Source: Nitrospinaceae bacterium (GTDB taxonomy: Bacteria > Nitrospinota > Nitrospinia > Nitrospinales > JACRGP01). Taken from it: a stretch of DNA of 47,350 bases. Both the position numbers and the translations under genes were made by a program. Within the stretch, counting starts at the first letter, position 1, and the number at the start of each line of letters is the position of its first letter. Below, piece by piece: positions 30,378-40,145 of the stretch. The notes beneath the pieces are model-generated. The model saw only the letters and a list, made by a program, of their open reading frames with translations. It ran no database searches and was not told the DNA's origin. The stretch lies in the NCBI GenBank assembly GCA_029261555.1, contig JAJDBB010000073.1, forward strand, positions 1 through 47,350, given 5' to 3'.

Positions 30378-32120
30378 CTATGGATTTTCAGATTTAAACA
30401 ATTTATTGGCAAGCTCAATGTCTTCGGGATAATGGATCTCGATCCAGCCTTTATGAACTTCCATGAAGTTGACGGTGAATTCCCGGTCGATCATTTCCTG
30501 GATCAGGTCGGTAAAATTCAATTGTGAAATGTCGTCCGCTTCATGCAGTCGGCCTTCGTAGTTCTGGACGCAATCCTGGTAGGTCTGTATGAATCGTTCC
30601 GCGCCGGTTTTGCTGAATTTTGCCAGTCCCATGAACTCGTGGGTGGCGTGCTCCGGGTTAATTTTTTTCCCGATCCGGGCGACGTCGTTCTCATAGACAA
30701 AACTTATTTTTCGCCGCGAGGGAGTGTGCCATTGTTTGCTCGCCACGAAATCGATGTAATGTCCGCTTTCGTTTTTGTGGTACTGGATGGAGTCGTCCAC
30801 CGCCAGAACAATGTCTTCCTCACAGGCCATGAGTTTGGTGATGATGTGACTTTCCAGAAGAATGTCCGAGTACAGGAGAACAAAGCCGTCTTCCAGTTTG
30901 TCCCGCGCCGCAAAAATGCTGTTCAATAAAGTTCCTTTTTTATAATCCTTGTTTTCCACGAAGGAACATCCTTCGGCTTGAACATGTTCCGCGCCGTATC
31001 CCGTCACTACGGTGACGTCCATCAGGTTATTTTTGTTGAACCCGGCGACTTGCCGGTGGAGCAGGGGCTTGCCCGCAATGTCCAGCATGGCTTTGGGTTT
31101 TCCGTTGAGGACGTCCTTGAGCCTAATTTCCTCTCCGGCGGCGGGAATGACGACGGGTATGTTTGTGTTGGTCTGGTCTTGTTTGTCTTTTTCTTTCACG
31201 TCCAGAAAGCCGACGGTATTGAAAATATCGCGCACCGGGGCGCAGTAGGGGTCGACTTCAAAGGATCGCTGGTGAACCAGAATGTTCTTTCCAGTTTTCA
31301 TCATAGCCCGATAGGCGCTGCGAAGCAGATGGTTGGCGTAGATGGCCACGTTGAATCCGGCTGAGGCTAATTCGTCCTCCGTCACTTTATTGTATGTGGT
31401 GGGCACACACACCAGCGGGCGCTTGAGGCCGAGTTCCTTAGACAGAGTCTGGTATTGCTTTGCAAAATCGAAAATCTCGTCCGGTTCCTTGGATTTGGAA
31501 TGGATCATGATACCGTCCGCCCCCGCGAGTAGGTATTCCCGGGCGCGCGATAGGGCGTCCTCGACGCTTCTTCCGGCGATGAGGCTTTCCAGCCGGGCGA
31601 TGATCATGAAGTCGTCGGTGATTTGTATTTGTTTGCCGCGTCGAATCTTGTTGGCGAATATTTTGGGATTTTCGAGGGTTTGTTGCGCGCCGTCCTCCAG
31701 GCTGTTGCGCTTGGGGAATACCTTGTCTTCAATAATGACGGCGGAAACTCCGGCCTTTTCCAGTCGAGTGATGGTGTATTCAAAGTTGTTGGGATCGCCG
31801 CCAGTGTCTCCATCCACGATGAGGGGCTTGCTGGTGACCGCCAGAATTTCCGAAATGGTTTGCAGGCGGGAGTCGAAGCTGACGACTTCGATGTCGGGAT
31901 AGCCCTTGGAGGCGGAGTCGGTGAGACTGCTCTCCCAAAGCGCGTCGAATTCCCGCGTCACCGGCTTTCCGCCGGACTCGCCTTCGACCTTGAGGTTGTT
32001 GGCGACAATGCCACTCAATCCGTTGTGCGCTTCCAGAACGCGCACCAGGTTTCCTTGTTTTAAAAGCGCTTTGAGTTTGCCTCTGCGAATTTCCGGTAGA
32101 ATATTGTTGCGAAGCGTCAT
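30378..32120 (-). CDS. pepM: PEP mutase fused to a nucleotidyltransferase
   Basis: 580 residues, ATG start overlapping the upstream gene's stop (ATGA). Residues about 15-300 are a phosphoenolpyruvate mutase: VDGDTGG (Asp103, Asp105) and EDKVFPKRNS (131-140), the diagnostic loop of C-P-bond-forming mutases as opposed to isocitrate lyases. Residues about 320-580 are a sugar-phosphate-type nucleotidyltransferase with PAAGEEIRLKDVLNGKPKAML. PepM makes phosphonopyruvate, the entry to phosphonates. The attached transferase suggests CTP activation of a phosphonate for a lipid or glycan. In Fom1 of fosfomycin producers the two domains are joined in the opposite order. The decarboxylase that normally pulls the reaction forward is not in this window. 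Confidence 0.92.
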   Translation of the reverse strand: MTLRNNILPEIRRGKLKALLKQGNLVRVLEAHNGLSGIVANNLKVEGESGGKPVTREFDALWESSLTDSASKGYPDIEVVSFDSRLQTISEILAVTSKPLIVDGDTGGDPNNFEYTITRLEKAGVSAVIIEDKVFPKRNSLEDGAQQTLENPKIFANKIRRGKQIQITDDFMIIARLESLIAGRSVEDALSRAREYLLAGADGIMIHSKSKEPDEIFDFAKQYQTLSKELGLKRPLVCVPTTYNKVTEDELASAGFNVAIYANHLLRSAYRAMMKTGKNILVHQRSFEVDPYCAPVRDIFNTVGFLDVKEKDKQDQTNTNIPVVIPAAGEEIRLKDVLNGKPKAMLDIAGKPLLHRQVAGFNKNNLMDVTVVTGYGAEHVQAEGCSFVENKDYKKGTLLNSIFAARDKLEDGFVLLYSDILLESHIITKLMACEEDIVLAVDDSIQYHKNESGHYIDFVASKQWHTPSRRKISFVYENDVARIGKKINPEHATHEFMGLAKFSKTGAERFIQTYQDCVQNYEGRLHEADDISQLNFTDLIQEMIDREFTVNFMEVHKGWIEIHYPEDIELANKLFKSENP

Positions 32121-34692: not shown

Positions 34693-36060
34693 TCAGTTAA
34701 TGATGCGGGCGATGTCGTTGTAGAAGGCGAAGGCCATCAGGCTGAGGAGCATGAAGAGTCCCACTTGATGGGCGCGTTCCCTGTTCTTTTCGCTGACGGG
34801 CCGGCCCTTGAGCGCTTCGATGGAAAAGAAAAACAAATGCCCGCCGTCCAGCATGGGAATAGGCAGTAAATTTAACAGGCCCAGGTTGATGCTGAGCAGG
34901 GCGGTGAGGAGAATCAGTTCGAGAAATCCTTGCTCGGCCTGTTGACCATAAATCTGGAAAATCAGGATCGGGCCGCCTATGGAGTCAGCGGGGACTGAAC
35001 CGAGAATCATTTTTTTGATGCTGGCGCCAATCAGGTAAGTGACGCGCCAGGTTTCCTTGAAGGCGCGTTTGACGGCGCCGAACGGGCCGTACTGTTCGGT
35101 CAGCATTTCTCCGATGAGGCCCATGCCCAGGGTTCCAATTTCCACTTTCTTGCCTTCGCGGTCCTTAACAATTTCGGATTTGGGAGTCACGGCAATGCTC
35201 AACCTGTCCCCGCCCCGATCAACTCCGAAGATCGCTTCTTTTCCGGGATGGTCCGCCGCATTTTCTTTCAGCGTTTCCCAACCCTGCATCGGCGCGCCGT
35301 TGATGGATACGATAACGTCTCCCAGTTGGAATCCGGCCTTTTCGGCAGGGGCGTCTTTTTTGAGGTAGGCGATTTCCTGGACCAGGGGGGTGACGCCGAT
35401 AAGCCCAACGGATTCTTTTTCGCCGAACATATTGGTGATCTCCTCCGCCAGCGGGGTGATCGCCAGGTTCATGACTTTGGCGGCGTTTCTTTCAATGACG
35501 ATATTTAATTCCTTACCAGGGCTTTTGTGCACGGTTTTCAACAGGTCTTCCCAGTAGAGTACCGGTTGGCCGTCTATTTCAACGATGCGGTCGCCTGTGG
35601 CGAGGCCCGCGGCCTGCGCTGGAGAGGAGTCGCGCACCGATCCGATCTGGGTGGAGAGGACCGGGACGCCGCCGAGATAAACGAAGTAATAAATAAGAAT
35701 GGAGAACAGAATATTGAACAGCGGACCGGCAAAGGCGATGATCATTCTACTGCTCACCGGCGCGGCGGAAAACGAACCTTCTTCGGGGGACTCTTCGTCC
35801 AGTTCTTCTCCCTTCATCTTGACATAGCCGCCCAGCGGAATGGCGCAGATGAGGAATTCGGTTCCGCCCGAGGTTTTGCTGACTATTTTGGGACCAAATC
35901 CCAGTGAAAATTTTTCCACGACCACGCCGCACCTGCGCGCGGCAAGGAAATGCCCTAGCTCGTGGACAAAAATCAGCGCTGCCAGGCCCGCAAGAAATAT
36001 GAAAGTCTTGGAGCTGTAGTCGATGATTGTATCAATAGGGAGAATGGAAAGTTCCAGCAT
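34693..36060 (-). CDS. rseP: Site-2 protease RseP (sigma-E pathway, M50)
   Basis: 455 residues. The zinc motif HELGH (33-37) is in the first membrane span. Two PDZ domains follow (about 120-200 and 205-290; VRDSSPAQAAGLATGDRIVEIDG and KKDAPAEKAGFQLGDVIVSING). The last spans carry the LLPIPMLDGGH metal ligand. RseP cuts anti-sigma factors and leftover signal peptides within the inner membrane. It is the last gene of a minus-strand run with lolA, purN and the LpxC fusion, fitting an envelope-stress and envelope-assembly theme. Confidence 0.96.
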   Translation of the reverse strand: MLELSILPIDTIIDYSSKTFIFLAGLAALIFVHELGHFLAARRCGVVVEKFSLGFGPKIVSKTSGGTEFLICAIPLGGYVKMKGEELDEESPEEGSFSAAPVSSRMIIAFAGPLFNILFSILIYYFVYLGGVPVLSTQIGSVRDSSPAQAAGLATGDRIVEIDGQPVLYWEDLLKTVHKSPGKELNIVIERNAAKVMNLAITPLAEEITNMFGEKESVGLIGVTPLVQEIAYLKKDAPAEKAGFQLGDVIVSINGAPMQGWETLKENAADHPGKEAIFGVDRGGDRLSIAVTPKSEIVKDREGKKVEIGTLGMGLIGEMLTEQYGPFGAVKRAFKETWRVTYLIGASIKKMILGSVPADSIGGPILIFQIYGQQAEQGFLELILLTALLSINLGLLNLLPIPMLDGGHLFFFSIEALKGRPVSEKNRERAHQVGLFMLLSLMAFAFYNDIARIIN

Positions 36061-36070
36061 GCTCGGCCTC

Positions 36071-36763
36071 TTATTTATGATCTTCCAGGGAGTCGGTGAA
36101 ATCCAAAACTTCGACTCCGCGGGGGGGATGAAATTGGAAAAGTTGGTCCGGTAAATCCAGATTGACTTCTATTTGACTGAATTTAATTTCTGTTTTGTTC
36201 CCTAATTTATCATACACGCTCGAACCCAGAATCTGATAGCTTTTCTTGTCCGCGAATAGGGTGAGCGTTTTCACGTTCATTTTCTTGTCCTTGGGCGCGA
36301 GTTCCACCTGGTAGGTCTCGGAGTTTGAGGTCACGCGCGCCACCTCGAACGATTCCGTCAGTTTTCCCTTGCCCGCGAGAAACAGGGCCGGGGTGTTGTT
36401 GGAATACACGTTTTTCATGGGCATTTTGTTGACCTGGTTTTCCTCAGGAACATATAGCCAGAGCATGTCTCCGTTGCTGATCAAAATCTGGGGATCAGGC
36501 GCGTCGTACAGCCATTTCATTTTCCCCGGCTTTTTAATAAAGACCTCGCCTTCCGTCGTTTGCACCTGATCCATTAATTTGATGAACGCTTTTTGAACGA
36601 ATTTTGCTTTCCAGGTTCGCGTCGCCTCGTACTTTTTTTGAACGGCGTCGACAGTCGCTTGTTCCTTACTGACGGCTCCTGCCGGCCCGGCGCACATCAG
36701 GCTAAACGCCAGAAACAAGGCCGCCGTCCCGAAAATTGAATTTATGAGTTTAAGATCAATCAT
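36071..36763 (-). CDS. lolA: Outer-membrane lipoprotein carrier protein LolA
   Basis: 230 residues. A signal peptide (hydrophobic AALFLAFSLMCAGPAGA) is cleaved near residue 30. The mature protein has the LolA beta-barrel pattern: TWKAKFVQ, TTEGEVFIKKPGKMKWLYDAP, ILISNGDMLWLYVPEENQV. It ferries lipoproteins across the periplasm. The ATG overlaps the purN stop by 8 bases (ATGATTGA), implying coupled translation. Confidence 0.94.
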   Translation of the reverse strand: MIDLKLINSIFGTAALFLAFSLMCAGPAGAVSKEQATVDAVQKKYEATRTWKAKFVQKAFIKLMDQVQTTEGEVFIKKPGKMKWLYDAPDPQILISNGDMLWLYVPEENQVNKMPMKNVYSNNTPALFLAGKGKLTESFEVARVTSNSETYQVELAPKDKKMNVKTLTLFADKKSYQILGSSVYDKLGNKTEIKFSQIEVNLDLPDQLFQFHPPRGVEVLDFTDSLEDHK

Positions 36764-37379
36764 CTTTTATTAACACCCTGCCGCCCGAGACCGTCAACCG
36801 ATTTTCCAGAAATAATTGGATCGCTCTCGGGTAGATAATATGTTCTTGCTCCAGAATGCGTTGAGCCAATTCGTCTACCCCGTCGGAGTCCTTAACGGGA
36901 ACGGCGGATTGCAGGACGATGGGTCCCGCGTCCACCGCCAGCTCGACAAAATGGACGGTGCATCCGCTGACTTTAACGCCTGCGTCCAGAGCCTGCTGTT
37001 GCGGGAACAGGCCCGGAAAATCGGGAAGGAGCGAAGGATGAATGTTTAAAATCCTGCCCTGGAAGGTTTCGATGAATTCAGCTCCTAAAATGCGCATGTA
37101 ACCTGCAAGGCAAACCAGGTCGACTTGTTTTTCCTTTAGCCGACGGCTCATCTCGCGGTCGAAGGATTCTTTATCCGGAGACGCTTTGGGATCGACAAAG
37201 GCGCATTCAATATTGTGCTTTTTGCCGCGCTCCAGCGCCTGGGCGTTTTCCTTGTTGCTGAGGATAACGGAAATTTCGGCGTCGACGTCTCCCCGTTCGA
37301 CGGCGTCGATAATGGCTTGCAGATTACTGCCGCGTCCGGAAGCCAGTATTCCTATTTTAGATTGCGTCTTATTGGTCAA
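36756..37379 (-). CDS. purN: Phosphoribosylglycinamide formyltransferase
   Basis: 207 residues. ILASGRGSNLQAII at the N-terminus binds GAR, and the catalytic region shows LAGYMRIL, NIHPSLLPDFPG and GCTVHFV...DAGPI. It transfers a formyl group from 10-formyl-THF in purine synthesis. The only sensible start is the TTG at 37379, 8 bases after the LpxC-fusion stop, with no clear ribosome site, so translation is probably coupled. Confidence 0.95.
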   Translation of the reverse strand: MTNKTQSKIGILASGRGSNLQAIIDAVERGDVDAEISVILSNKENAQALERGKKHNIECAFVDPKASPDKESFDREMSRRLKEKQVDLVCLAGYMRILGAEFIETFQGRILNIHPSLLPDFPGLFPQQQALDAGVKVSGCTVHFVELAVDAGPIVLQSAVPVKDSDGVDELAQRILEQEHIIYPRAIQLFLENRLTVSGGRVLIKDD

Positions 37380-37387
37380 GGAAAAAT

Positions 37388-39433
37388 CTAGGATAAGCTG
37401 GTCAGGATATTTTTGAGAAGCCCGATATTTTGCGTGTGCCCGGATTTATGGGCGCGGACCCGCCCGCGAATGGGTTTTCCCAGGAGATAAAGGTCGCCGA
37501 TGATGTCCAGGATTTTGTGGCGAACAAATTCGTTGTCATAACGTAGCTCGGTGTTCAAAACCTTTCCGTCGCCCAGCAGGATGAAATTGTCCAGTTTGCC
37601 GCCGACGCCGAATCCCATCGCGTTCAATTGCGCCACTTCCTCCATGAATCCAAAAGTGCGTGCCGGGGCGATTGCGGTTTTAAAACTTTCTGCCCCGGAA
37701 AACTCGTAGGTGTAATCGCAAACCCCGATGGGTTCGGGATATTCCATGTGGTACTCAACGATGAAATTATCCGCCGGCTCGATGGAAATATAGGCGCCGC
37801 CGTTTTCCTTGGACCCGAAACTGTATTTTTGACGAATGACCATTTCCTCCTGCTCCTCGTCCTGGATTTCGAATTCGCCGTCTTCAATAAGCTGGCAAAA
37901 ATCCTTGGCCGAGCCGTCCATTACCGGGGCTTCGTCGCCAATTTTTATCAGAAGATTGGTGATCCGGTACATGTGAAGAACCGCCATGATGTGTTCGATG
38001 GTGGCCACGGAGGAAGGTCCCTTCCCCAGGCAGGTGGAGTAATCGGTGGACTGTACGTTTTCCAACCGCGCGGGAATTGTGTGGCGGCTGGAAATGTCGC
38101 CAAAGATAATTCCGCTTCCGGGCGGCAGGGGTTGCAGGATCAAACCGGTATTGATTCCGGAATGCAAACCGCTTCCGCAAAGCACCACGCTTCTTTTTAA
38201 CGTCCGTTGCCTGAGGGGAGGCGCAGTTTTTTTTTCAGTGGAACCTCGGGAATCGCCGCCGTTGGAAGATGTGGAAGCCCGAACGTCTGGGGTCTCCACG
38301 CAGGCGATTCGAAATTTTGCCGGCAAATCGTTCAGCGAAATCGTTTGACGGTTGGTTCCCGGAATCACTATTTGTTCCAAAAGGCCGCGCAACTCTTTAA
38401 TGTTGCCGGGCCAGGAATAGGCGCAAAGGGTTTTCAAGGCGTCAGGATCAAATTGCGGAGCCTTGGCCCCATCGCCCTCCAGAAATTCTTCAAAATAGGT
38501 TTGGATCAAGTTGGGAATGCGATCAGAATACTCCCGCAGAGGGGGAATGGCTAGCGACCCCTTTTCCAGAATTCCGTACAGTCCCGGATGGAAATCCCCT
38601 TTTTGTGCCAGTTCGGCAAGATTCACCGAGCTTGCCGCGATCAGCCGGGCCGCAAGGAACCCGGCGTCATTGCCTTTGGGATCCTCTTCCTGTGCCTTTA
38701 GCGCTTTGGCTAGTTTTTCCTGAAGGCTTTTGCCCAGAGCTTCAATGTTCGTCAGGTAAACGATTTTCCGGTCCGGCGCCCCCAGTTCCTTCTTGGTTGA
38801 GGATCTTGGAGACGATTTGAACAACTGGGACTGAATGTTTGGCATGGGCCGCACTGCGCAGTTCAATTTTATCAGCGGAAGTTCGCGGATTTTGCTTTGG
38901 CGATGGATGGACTGAGCAATCAACTCCTTACCGACGCCGGATTCTCCCAAAATCAATGTCGGCTTAATGTGGCGTGCCATGGACTTGATGGATTTTTTGA
39001 TCTCAACCATTCGATCAAAACAAAACGGGATCTCGTTGTTCCAGGATTTTTCTCGCGACTCGGTTTGCCGGTCGCGCAAGGCTGAGGCGATGCTTTTGGT
39101 GATCTGGTCCAGGGAAAACGGTTTTTCGATGAAGTTATACGCCCCCAGCTTGGTGGCCTTCACCGCCGTTTCGATTGTCCCGTGACCGGACATGATCAAC
39201 ACCGCCATTTCGGGATAATAGGTTTTTATGGTTTTCAAAACCTCGATGCCGTCCATTCCCGGAATCCAGATATCCAGCAAAACCAAATCCGGCGGATCGT
39301 TCTGAATTTTTTCCAAAGCGTCCAAGCCGTCCATGGAAGACCCGACCTCGTAACCTTCGTCCGCGAGAATATCCTGTAACGAGGCGACGATGTTTTTTTC
39401 GTCGTCTACGATTAGAACTCTTTCCTTGTTCAA
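37388..39433 (-). CDS. lpxC: Response regulator - degenerate AAA+ - LpxC fusion (lipid A deacetylase)
   Basis: 681 residues from a TTG at 39433, with GGAGG 6 bases upstream. Residues 1-120 are an NtrC-type receiver: Asp10/Asp11, phospho-acceptor Asp54, Ser82, Lys104. Residues about 140-375 are the AAA+ domain of sigma-54 activators. Walker A GESGVGKE is kept (163-170), but the GAFTGA loop is absent, the Walker B DE is TN (YLTNIEAL), and the arginine-finger segment reads FHPGLYGIL. No HTH follows. A Ser/Gly/Lys-rich linker leads to LpxC (about 407-681). Its catalytic set is complete: Glu480/His481, His639 and Asp643 (zinc), His666. LpxC deacetylates UDP-3-O-acyl-GlcNAc, the committed step of lipid A synthesis. 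No stop or frameshift separates the parts. Receiver control of LpxC activity is inference. Confidence 0.93.
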   Translation of the reverse strand: MNKERVLIVDDEKNIVASLQDILADEGYEVGSSMDGLDALEKIQNDPPDLVLLDIWIPGMDGIEVLKTIKTYYPEMAVLIMSGHGTIETAVKATKLGAYNFIEKPFSLDQITKSIASALRDRQTESREKSWNNEIPFCFDRMVEIKKSIKSMARHIKPTLILGESGVGKELIAQSIHRQSKIRELPLIKLNCAVRPMPNIQSQLFKSSPRSSTKKELGAPDRKIVYLTNIEALGKSLQEKLAKALKAQEEDPKGNDAGFLAARLIAASSVNLAELAQKGDFHPGLYGILEKGSLAIPPLREYSDRIPNLIQTYFEEFLEGDGAKAPQFDPDALKTLCAYSWPGNIKELRGLLEQIVIPGTNRQTISLNDLPAKFRIACVETPDVRASTSSNGGDSRGSTEKKTAPPLRQRTLKRSVVLCGSGLHSGINTGLILQPLPPGSGIIFGDISSRHTIPARLENVQSTDYSTCLGKGPSSVATIEHIMAVLHMYRITNLLIKIGDEAPVMDGSAKDFCQLIEDGEFEIQDEEQEEMVIRQKYSFGSKENGGAYISIEPADNFIVEYHMEYPEPIGVCDYTYEFSGAESFKTAIAPARTFGFMEEVAQLNAMGFGVGGKLDNFILLGDGKVLNTELRYDNEFVRHKILDIIGDLYLLGKPIRGRVRAHKSGHTQNIGLLKNILTSLS

Positions 39434-39506
39434 AATGCGCCTCCAACTCCGGGTAATAAAGCAAGCCGTCCACATATTTTCCCGGTTTGAATAGAAATTG
39501 TAAACC

Positions 39507-40145
39507 TTATTCTTTAATGAAGTCCGTGTAGTAAATCGTGTGCCCGTTGCGGATAAAATAATTTTCGTATTTGGTTTTGGGCACGTCGCTTCTTTCGTGA
39601 AAAAACTGCGTCTCACCCGATTTGTTTTTCAATAGCGGCTCGTTTTCCAGGTAGACAATCATTTCCCGGGCATAGGGTTCGCTGTCCGTGGCGAGGCGGA
39701 GGGTTCCGCCTGGTTCCAAAAGCGTCGCCAGTAAATGGACGAAATCAGGCTTTATCAGCCGCCGTTTGATGTGGCGTTTTTTGGGCCAGGGATCGGGAAA
39801 GTTGATAAAAATTTCGCTCAGCTCGCCGGCCTGGAATAAAACGGGGACTTTCTGACGGGCGTCCCCATAGCATATCCGGGCATTATTTATCATCAACTTG
39901 TCCAGCCGGGTGACGGATTTACGAATCCCTTTATGATAAAAATCAAGTCCGATTAAATTACTTTCCTGCCGCTGGAGAGCCAGTTCTATTAAAAACCGTC
40001 CATTGCCAAAACCAATCTCCAGTTTCAGGGGATGGTCGTTTTCGAAAATGCGCGGCCAGTCGGGGCGCTCGTCCGTGTTGATAAAAAGAGGATGGCCCGA
40101 CGATTCTAGCTCGTCAAAAGATATGAGGTTTTTAGCGGAAGACAT
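39507..40145 (-). CDS. trmB: tRNA (guanine-N7-)-methyltransferase
   Basis: 212 residues, ATG start. The SAM site LEIGFGNGRFLIELA and the family motif INFPDPWPKKRHIKRRL are intact. It makes m7G46 in tRNA. It begins 6 bases after greA ends and precedes the LpxC fusion by 73 bases on the same strand. Confidence 0.96.
   Translation of the reverse strand: MSSAKNLISFDELESSGHPLFINTDERPDWPRIFENDHPLKLEIGFGNGRFLIELALQRQESNLIGLDFYHKGIRKSVTRLDKLMINNARICYGDARQKVPVLFQAGELSEIFINFPDPWPKKRHIKRRLIKPDFVHLLATLLEPGGTLRLATDSEPYAREMIVYLENEPLLKNKSGETQFFHERSDVPKTKYENYFIRNGHTIYYTDFIKE

Follow-up and report, generated by a model that had tools for sequence, protein, structure and literature searches.

LpxC is the enzyme that commits the cell to lipid A synthesis, and its known controls act either on its amount, through FtsH/LapB proteolysis, or on its transcription. 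A 2025 review of lipid A regulation names proteolysis and transcription control by NtrYX/ChvGI, states that NtrYX inhibits lpxC transcription in Caulobacter, and gave no match when its text was searched for the terms fused, fusion or response regulator (PMC12444477). Loss of NtrYX in Rhodobacter sphaeroides raised lpxC mRNA 8.8-fold and LPS about 2-fold (PMC7240162). The response regulator DVU2934 of Desulfovibrio vulgaris has lpxC as its single target, but it differs from the protein described here in binding DNA upstream of a separate, unfused lpxC (PMC3333781). CheB-type response regulators with enzymatic output share with this protein the principle of a receiver covalently attached to an enzyme (PMC12471899), whereas the enzyme attached in the present case performs the committed step of lipid A synthesis and is the sole copy in the genome. 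LpxC-FabZ proteins, which explained the long LpxC frames of five sampled genomes (G144, G174, G247, G269 and G290; frames extending upstream) that had been considered as receiver fusions, also carry LpxC in a multidomain protein, but their C-terminal FabZ is a pathway enzyme and they have no signalling domain. No published fusion of LpxC to a receiver was found in the open-access literature searched, which does not cover subscription papers. The kind is thus known, a response regulator with enzymatic output, and LpxC as the output had not been met in that literature.

In the window, the whole stretch of 47,350 nucleotides analysed here from a Nitrospinaceae bacterium, a receiver, an AAA+ domain and LpxC are encoded in one frame (Table 1). 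We propose, with a probability of roughly three in four, that the product is an NtrX-derived response regulator with LpxC as its output, in which Asp54 would be phosphorylated by the histidine kinase NtrY. The first-pass annotation had described a 681-residue frame joining a receiver to LpxC; the frame is real, judging from its start codon, ribosome-binding site and Pfam domains, and both domains were correctly named, but the degenerate sigma-54-type AAA+ domain between them had been overlooked. All four Pfam domains scored far over their cut-offs, namely Response_reg at residues 6-115 (E 1e-31), Sigma54_activat at 141-290 (2e-21), AAA_lid_14 at 300-375 (1e-14) and LpxC at 409-677 (2e-79). The best PDB match of the N-terminal half, by sequence (E 1e-54) and by fold, was NtrX of Brucella abortus (PDB 5m7n/5m7o), with which it shares the order and sequence of receiver and AAA+, and the C-terminal half matched LpxC. 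The fusion differs from NtrX in its C-terminal LpxC, and the window protein also in its eroded Walker B (IVYLTNI), in the absence of a Fis-type HTH and in its score against the NCBIfam NtrX model (239.8 bits, under the cut-off of 600). Its AAA+ domain has an intact Walker A and lacks the GAFTGA loop. With standard LpxC (TIGR00325, PF03331) the fusion shares the complete domain, scoring 267 bits against a curated cut-off of 27 for PF03331 and 235 against 187 for TIGR00325, and the full set of zinc ligands and catalytic residues, recovered by comparison with the fused homologues and by alignment to P. aeruginosa LpxC; deacetylase activity is predicted. In contrast to standard LpxC, it carries a receiver and belongs to a deep clade of its own.

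Table 1. Features of the fusion gene and its neighbours, in positions of the window.
Feature	Position	Strand	Evidence or remark
Receiver-AAA+-LpxC fusion gene	37388..39433	(-)	681 aa, TTG start, TAG stop; ORF, Pfam, homologous fusions
Ribosome-binding site GGAGG	39440..39444	(-)	6 nt 5' of TTG start at 39433; sequence
NtrC/NtrX-type receiver, residues 4-118	39080..39424	(-)	Pfam PF00072 E 1.1e-31; folded in AlphaFold2 model
Asp54, predicted phospho-acceptor	39272..39274	(-)	kept in 66/66 fused homologues
Degenerate sigma-54-type AAA+ and lid, residues 140-375	38309..39016	(-)	Pfam PF00158, PF25601
Walker A GESGVGK, residues 163-169	38927..38947	(-)	sequence
Linker, residues 376-406	38216..38308	(-)	HTH position in relatives, none in window; pLDDT <50 at 378-403
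Complete LpxC deacetylase domain, residues 407-681	37391..38215	(-)	PF03331 E 2e-79, TIGR00325 235 bits, PDB LpxC matches
Glu480-His481, LpxC general base and zinc ligand	37991..37996	(-)	66/66
His639, LpxC zinc ligand	37517..37519	(-)	66/66
Asp643, LpxC zinc ligand	37505..37507	(-)	66/66
His666, LpxC catalytic His	37436..37438	(-)	66/66
trmB-like tRNA methyltransferase, upstream neighbour	39507..40145	(-)	ORF; same place in most Nitrospinales loci; named by inspection
purN-like, downstream neighbour	36756..37379	(-)	8 nt past fusion stop; ORF, conserved position; named by inspection
LolA-like lipoprotein carrier	36071..36763	(-)	ORF, conserved position; named by inspection
RseP-like site-2 protease	34693..36060	(-)	ORF, conserved position; named by inspection

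The enterobacterial LpxC controlled by FtsH/LapB carries a C-terminal degron tail, and the fused clade is without it. The short C-terminus noted by the first-pass annotation is real, with 15 residues after His666 in the window protein. The missing tail alone says little, because 13-32 residues after this histidine are the rule of the clade and betaproteobacterial LpxC is likewise without a C-terminal degron (PMC12444477). A search with the curated LapB model gave a match over the cut-off in one of 77 genomes and none in the genome of the window, and among the controls matches were obtained in E. coli only. The sole match (L262, G013 contig 145, 1275-2420) lies on a possibly contaminating contig.

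The purN-, lolA- and rseP-like genes form a run (34693-37379, minus strand) 3' of the fusion, the order of which recurs in several lineages, and give the locus an envelope-related neighbourhood. A further frame of the window (30378-32120, minus strand) encodes 580 residues that by inspection resemble a PEP mutase/isocitrate-lyase-type domain fused to a nucleotidyltransferase; it suggests phosphonate-containing lipids or polymers, and relatives lie close to the fused gene at L041, L042 and L097.

In most sampled lineages outside Nitrospinales, the order of the window, the gene upstream of the fusion was the histidine kinase NtrY on the same strand. At 18 of the loci examined, with L175 and L176 added, it lay directly 5' of the fusion as a membrane kinase of 737-785 residues (a contig-cut part in L035) with NtrY_N, HAMP, PAS, HisKA and HATPase domains; four kinases were assigned by Pfam scan and the rest via sequence clustering. 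The linkage is operon-like, the distance from NtrY to the fusion start being mostly -8 to +139 bases where measured, and in G067 and G068 the NtrY stop overlaps the fusion start by 4 bases. NtrY is also retained together with the fusion: each of the nine fusion-bearing genomes from other phyla has it, and within the phylum most genomes gave a single strong match over its full length. The fused lineages in which NtrY adjoins thus resemble the NtrY-NtrX arrangement, whereas in the genome of the window NtrY is unlinked to the fusion (L215, contig 22, 37667-39871; E 1.8e-282). In Nitrospinales the fusion has moved to a place beside trmB and purN, and NtrY, recovered as one full-length match of this kind in most genomes of the order, is located elsewhere without a neighbouring regulator. 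As in the linked lineages, NtrY has kept mutS, galE and a DUF4390-like gene upstream of it, and the gene 3' of it is an unrelated aldehyde dehydrogenase-like or DUF1566-like one.

The genome of the window encodes five full NtrC-type regulators, three of which are adjoined by a kinase of their own; beside the other two (contigs 31 and 68) no kinase was found within the stretches searched. The regulator on contig 31 (L241, 6044-7477), with no kinase in the 13 kb read, has GAFTNA in place of GAFTGA. The receiver of the window protein was 30-35% identical to the receivers of these five regulators, versus 48-60% to those of fusions from other lineages, the majority of them NtrY-linked. Because the fused receivers are the nearer ones, orthology points to NtrY as the best candidate partner of the window fusion. 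Of the 12 named fused loci, a pair (L104 and L105) had another histidine kinase, divergently oriented, nearby in place of NtrY. It is a PAS-type kinase lying just upstream with an HDOD-like gene, a possible kinase replacement.

In the proposed mechanism, NtrY would phosphorylate Asp54 of the fused receiver, and the phosphorylated receiver would change state and alter LpxC. Comparison of 66 fused sequences, which include at least one duplicate between genomes (L094 and L039 look identical), showed that Asp11, Asp54, Gly83, Lys104 and Pro105 of the receiver were invariant, with Asp or Glu at position 10 and Ser or Thr at position 82 throughout, and that Glu480, His481, His639, Lys640, Asp643 and His666 of LpxC were invariant as well. 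The residues listed in the first-pass annotation for the receiver (Asp10/11, Asp54, Ser82 and Lys104) and for LpxC (Glu480, His481, His639, Asp643 and His666) are therefore present and, over the family, essentially or fully conserved. In the AlphaFold2 model of the window protein the domains were well folded and residues 378-403, between receiver and LpxC, were disordered; in that of L098, a receiver-LpxC form, the disordered linker comprised about 50 residues. No receiver-enzyme interface was seen in either model, and no rigid allosteric path was visible. Since folded domains are placed on disordered linkers in these models, dimerisation, docking or tethering would be favoured over a rigid relay.

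The same linkers leave room for a different, tentative reading, which we hold possible and rather unlikely, that the receiver is a tether or oligomerisation module which NtrY binds, thereby bringing LpxC to the membrane or into a complex; phosphorylation would then set location or stability and not catalytic rate. It would suit the long disordered linkers predicted, a kinase that is a membrane protein, and E. coli LpxC, which is controlled by amount through FtsH and not by rate (PMC12444477). However, a pure tether would have no need of full phospho-site invariance, which holds in all 66 sequences. The two readings also overlap, as the response regulator with LpxC output admits control of location. 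Under this response-regulator reading we infer phosphotransfer from NtrY to the fusion and an effect on LpxC, and phosphorylation may change the deacetylase activity, as the first-pass annotation had supposed. As a weak prior, restraint of LpxC may be taken as the direction of the effect, because NtrYX of R. sphaeroides restrains lpxC transcription and LPS.

The domains of the fusion have had different fates. Thirty-three of the 66 fusions have both AAA+ and HTH, 25 have AAA+ only, as in the window, seven are receiver-LpxC proteins (among them those of G067, G068 and G022) and one is receiver-HTH-LpxC (G001); the HTH is accordingly found in 34 and missing in 32, and AAA+ is missing in eight. 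At least four state changes of AAA+ and at least nine of the HTH were required on the tree, and we infer that these were losses and not gains because the origin is NtrX-like; the receiver was retained in every fused sequence read. Mean pairwise identity over the 66 fusions was 0.636 for the receiver and 0.640 for LpxC, against 0.327 for AAA+. Between the window protein and its congener, dN was 0.023 for receiver and LpxC alike and 0.097 for AAA+, and other close pairs likewise gave similar values for receiver and LpxC, both well under AAA+; the dN comparison refers to close pairs only, dN/dS being saturated and GC-biased for distant ones. In relatives, the Fis-type HTH is located between AAA+ and LpxC, so LpxC was evidently added at the end of a complete NtrX-like regulator and did not take the place of its DNA-binding domain. 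The loss of that domain from the window protein, as first annotated, stands, and its replacement by the enzyme does not. Sequence comparison thus suggests that the transcription parts decayed after the joining as receiver and enzyme were held, and among the computational arguments for a receiver that now serves LpxC this pattern is the strongest.

The motif GAFTGA was found in none of the 66 fusions, which rules out an active sigma-54 activator. In other respects the fusion might still be a transcription regulator that carries LpxC and has a dual function, a reading we regard as unlikely. The AAA+ and Fis-type HTH kept together in half of the sequences would agree with it, as would an intact Walker B in several fusions of other lineages and in family f9 of the phylum, but the missing GAFTGA, the 32 sequences without HTH, the eight without AAA+ and the rapid evolution of AAA+, the fastest of the domains, argue against it, and for the window protein the missing HTH already does so. 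A separate LpxC, arising through internal initiation or proteolytic cleavage and active without its receiver, is very unlikely: the linker, disordered in the models, could be cleaved, but an ATG with a Shine-Dalgarno-like sequence was found within 45 codons 5' of LpxC in only four of the 66 sequences, and the candidates in this stretch of the window are three GTG codons, none of which has a sequence of that kind. Still less credence belongs to the idea that the receiver is a passive remnant, fixed by chance beside an LpxC that alone is active. LpxC tolerates fusion, as the LpxC-FabZ proteins indicate, but a remnant should not be conserved like the enzyme, with an invariant phospho-site and a linked kinase, and never be lost beside decaying domains.

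A profile search with PF03331 recovered one LpxC in the genome of the window (86% complete), which is the fusion. The second lpxC envisaged by the first-pass annotation was thus looked for and not found in this genome, and inactivity of the present copy through decay is contradicted by its intact catalytic residues. LpxB is present, so the lipid A pathway exists. In the phylum, LpxC was found in 65 of 77 genomes, each with exactly one copy, in frames of nearly always 670-797 residues, and every frame read that was not cut by a contig end was fused; the short frames read were either cut at contig ends (L025 and L027) or reduced fusions (those of G067, G068, G022 and G001). No stand-alone LpxC was seen among these 77 genomes, the frames of G040, G044 and G050 (short frames or partial matches) standing outside the individually read set. 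Two genomes, G023 (96% complete) and G003 (99%), have NtrY (partial in G003) and gave no LpxC match, through an assembly gap or true loss.

The search for the architecture elsewhere, as the first-pass annotation had advised, was positive. Nine of the genomes sampled outside the phylum (G106, G117, G123, G138, G148, G162, G213, G262 and G279) encode receiver-AAA+-(HTH)-LpxC proteins. When named genomes were scanned with the LpxC part as query, the best 12 loci listed (49-60% identity) were all receiver fusions, from Nitrospinota, Desulfomonile, other Thermodesulfobacteriota and 'Deltaproteobacteria' or unclassified MAGs; below these, identity fell to 42% or less among the matches listed, and the 11 read were all stand-alone LpxC of about 300 residues. 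When 46 fused LpxCs were placed together with 34 others in a maximum-likelihood tree, the fused ones all lay on one side of a branch recovered in 100% of bootstrap trees (100/100). Their clade is deep, on a long stem of 1.68 changes per column. A single origin is the simplest reading of these sequences. An assembly or sequencing artefact that merged two genes, for which nothing but the draft status of the genome speaks, can be dismissed, as the identical architecture occurs in dozens of independent genomes, including the single-contig assemblies G009, G047 and G057, and forms this one clade.

LpxC as a response-regulator output is well supported, because the single LpxC, the invariant phospho-site, the receiver kept amid erosion of AAA+ and HTH, and the conserved NtrY all point to it, and in the fused lineages a sensor kinase can probably act directly on lipid A synthesis. 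It seems fairly likely, at somewhat lower confidence than the response-regulator reading itself, that NtrY/NtrX-LpxC acts on the committed enzyme without a transcription step, and that it had a single origin, came to be distributed over several phyla and retained only receiver and enzyme as the transcription machinery decayed. If this is true, a sole LpxC with its own phospho-receiver beside a kinase would be a direct link from signal to enzyme for outer-membrane synthesis, and would suggest how LPS is kept in balance in Nitrospinota and their relatives, where the enterobacterial degron is missing. As a natural coupling of receiver and enzyme, the fusion would also help in asking which signal NtrY detects and for what reason NtrYX influences LPS in other bacteria.
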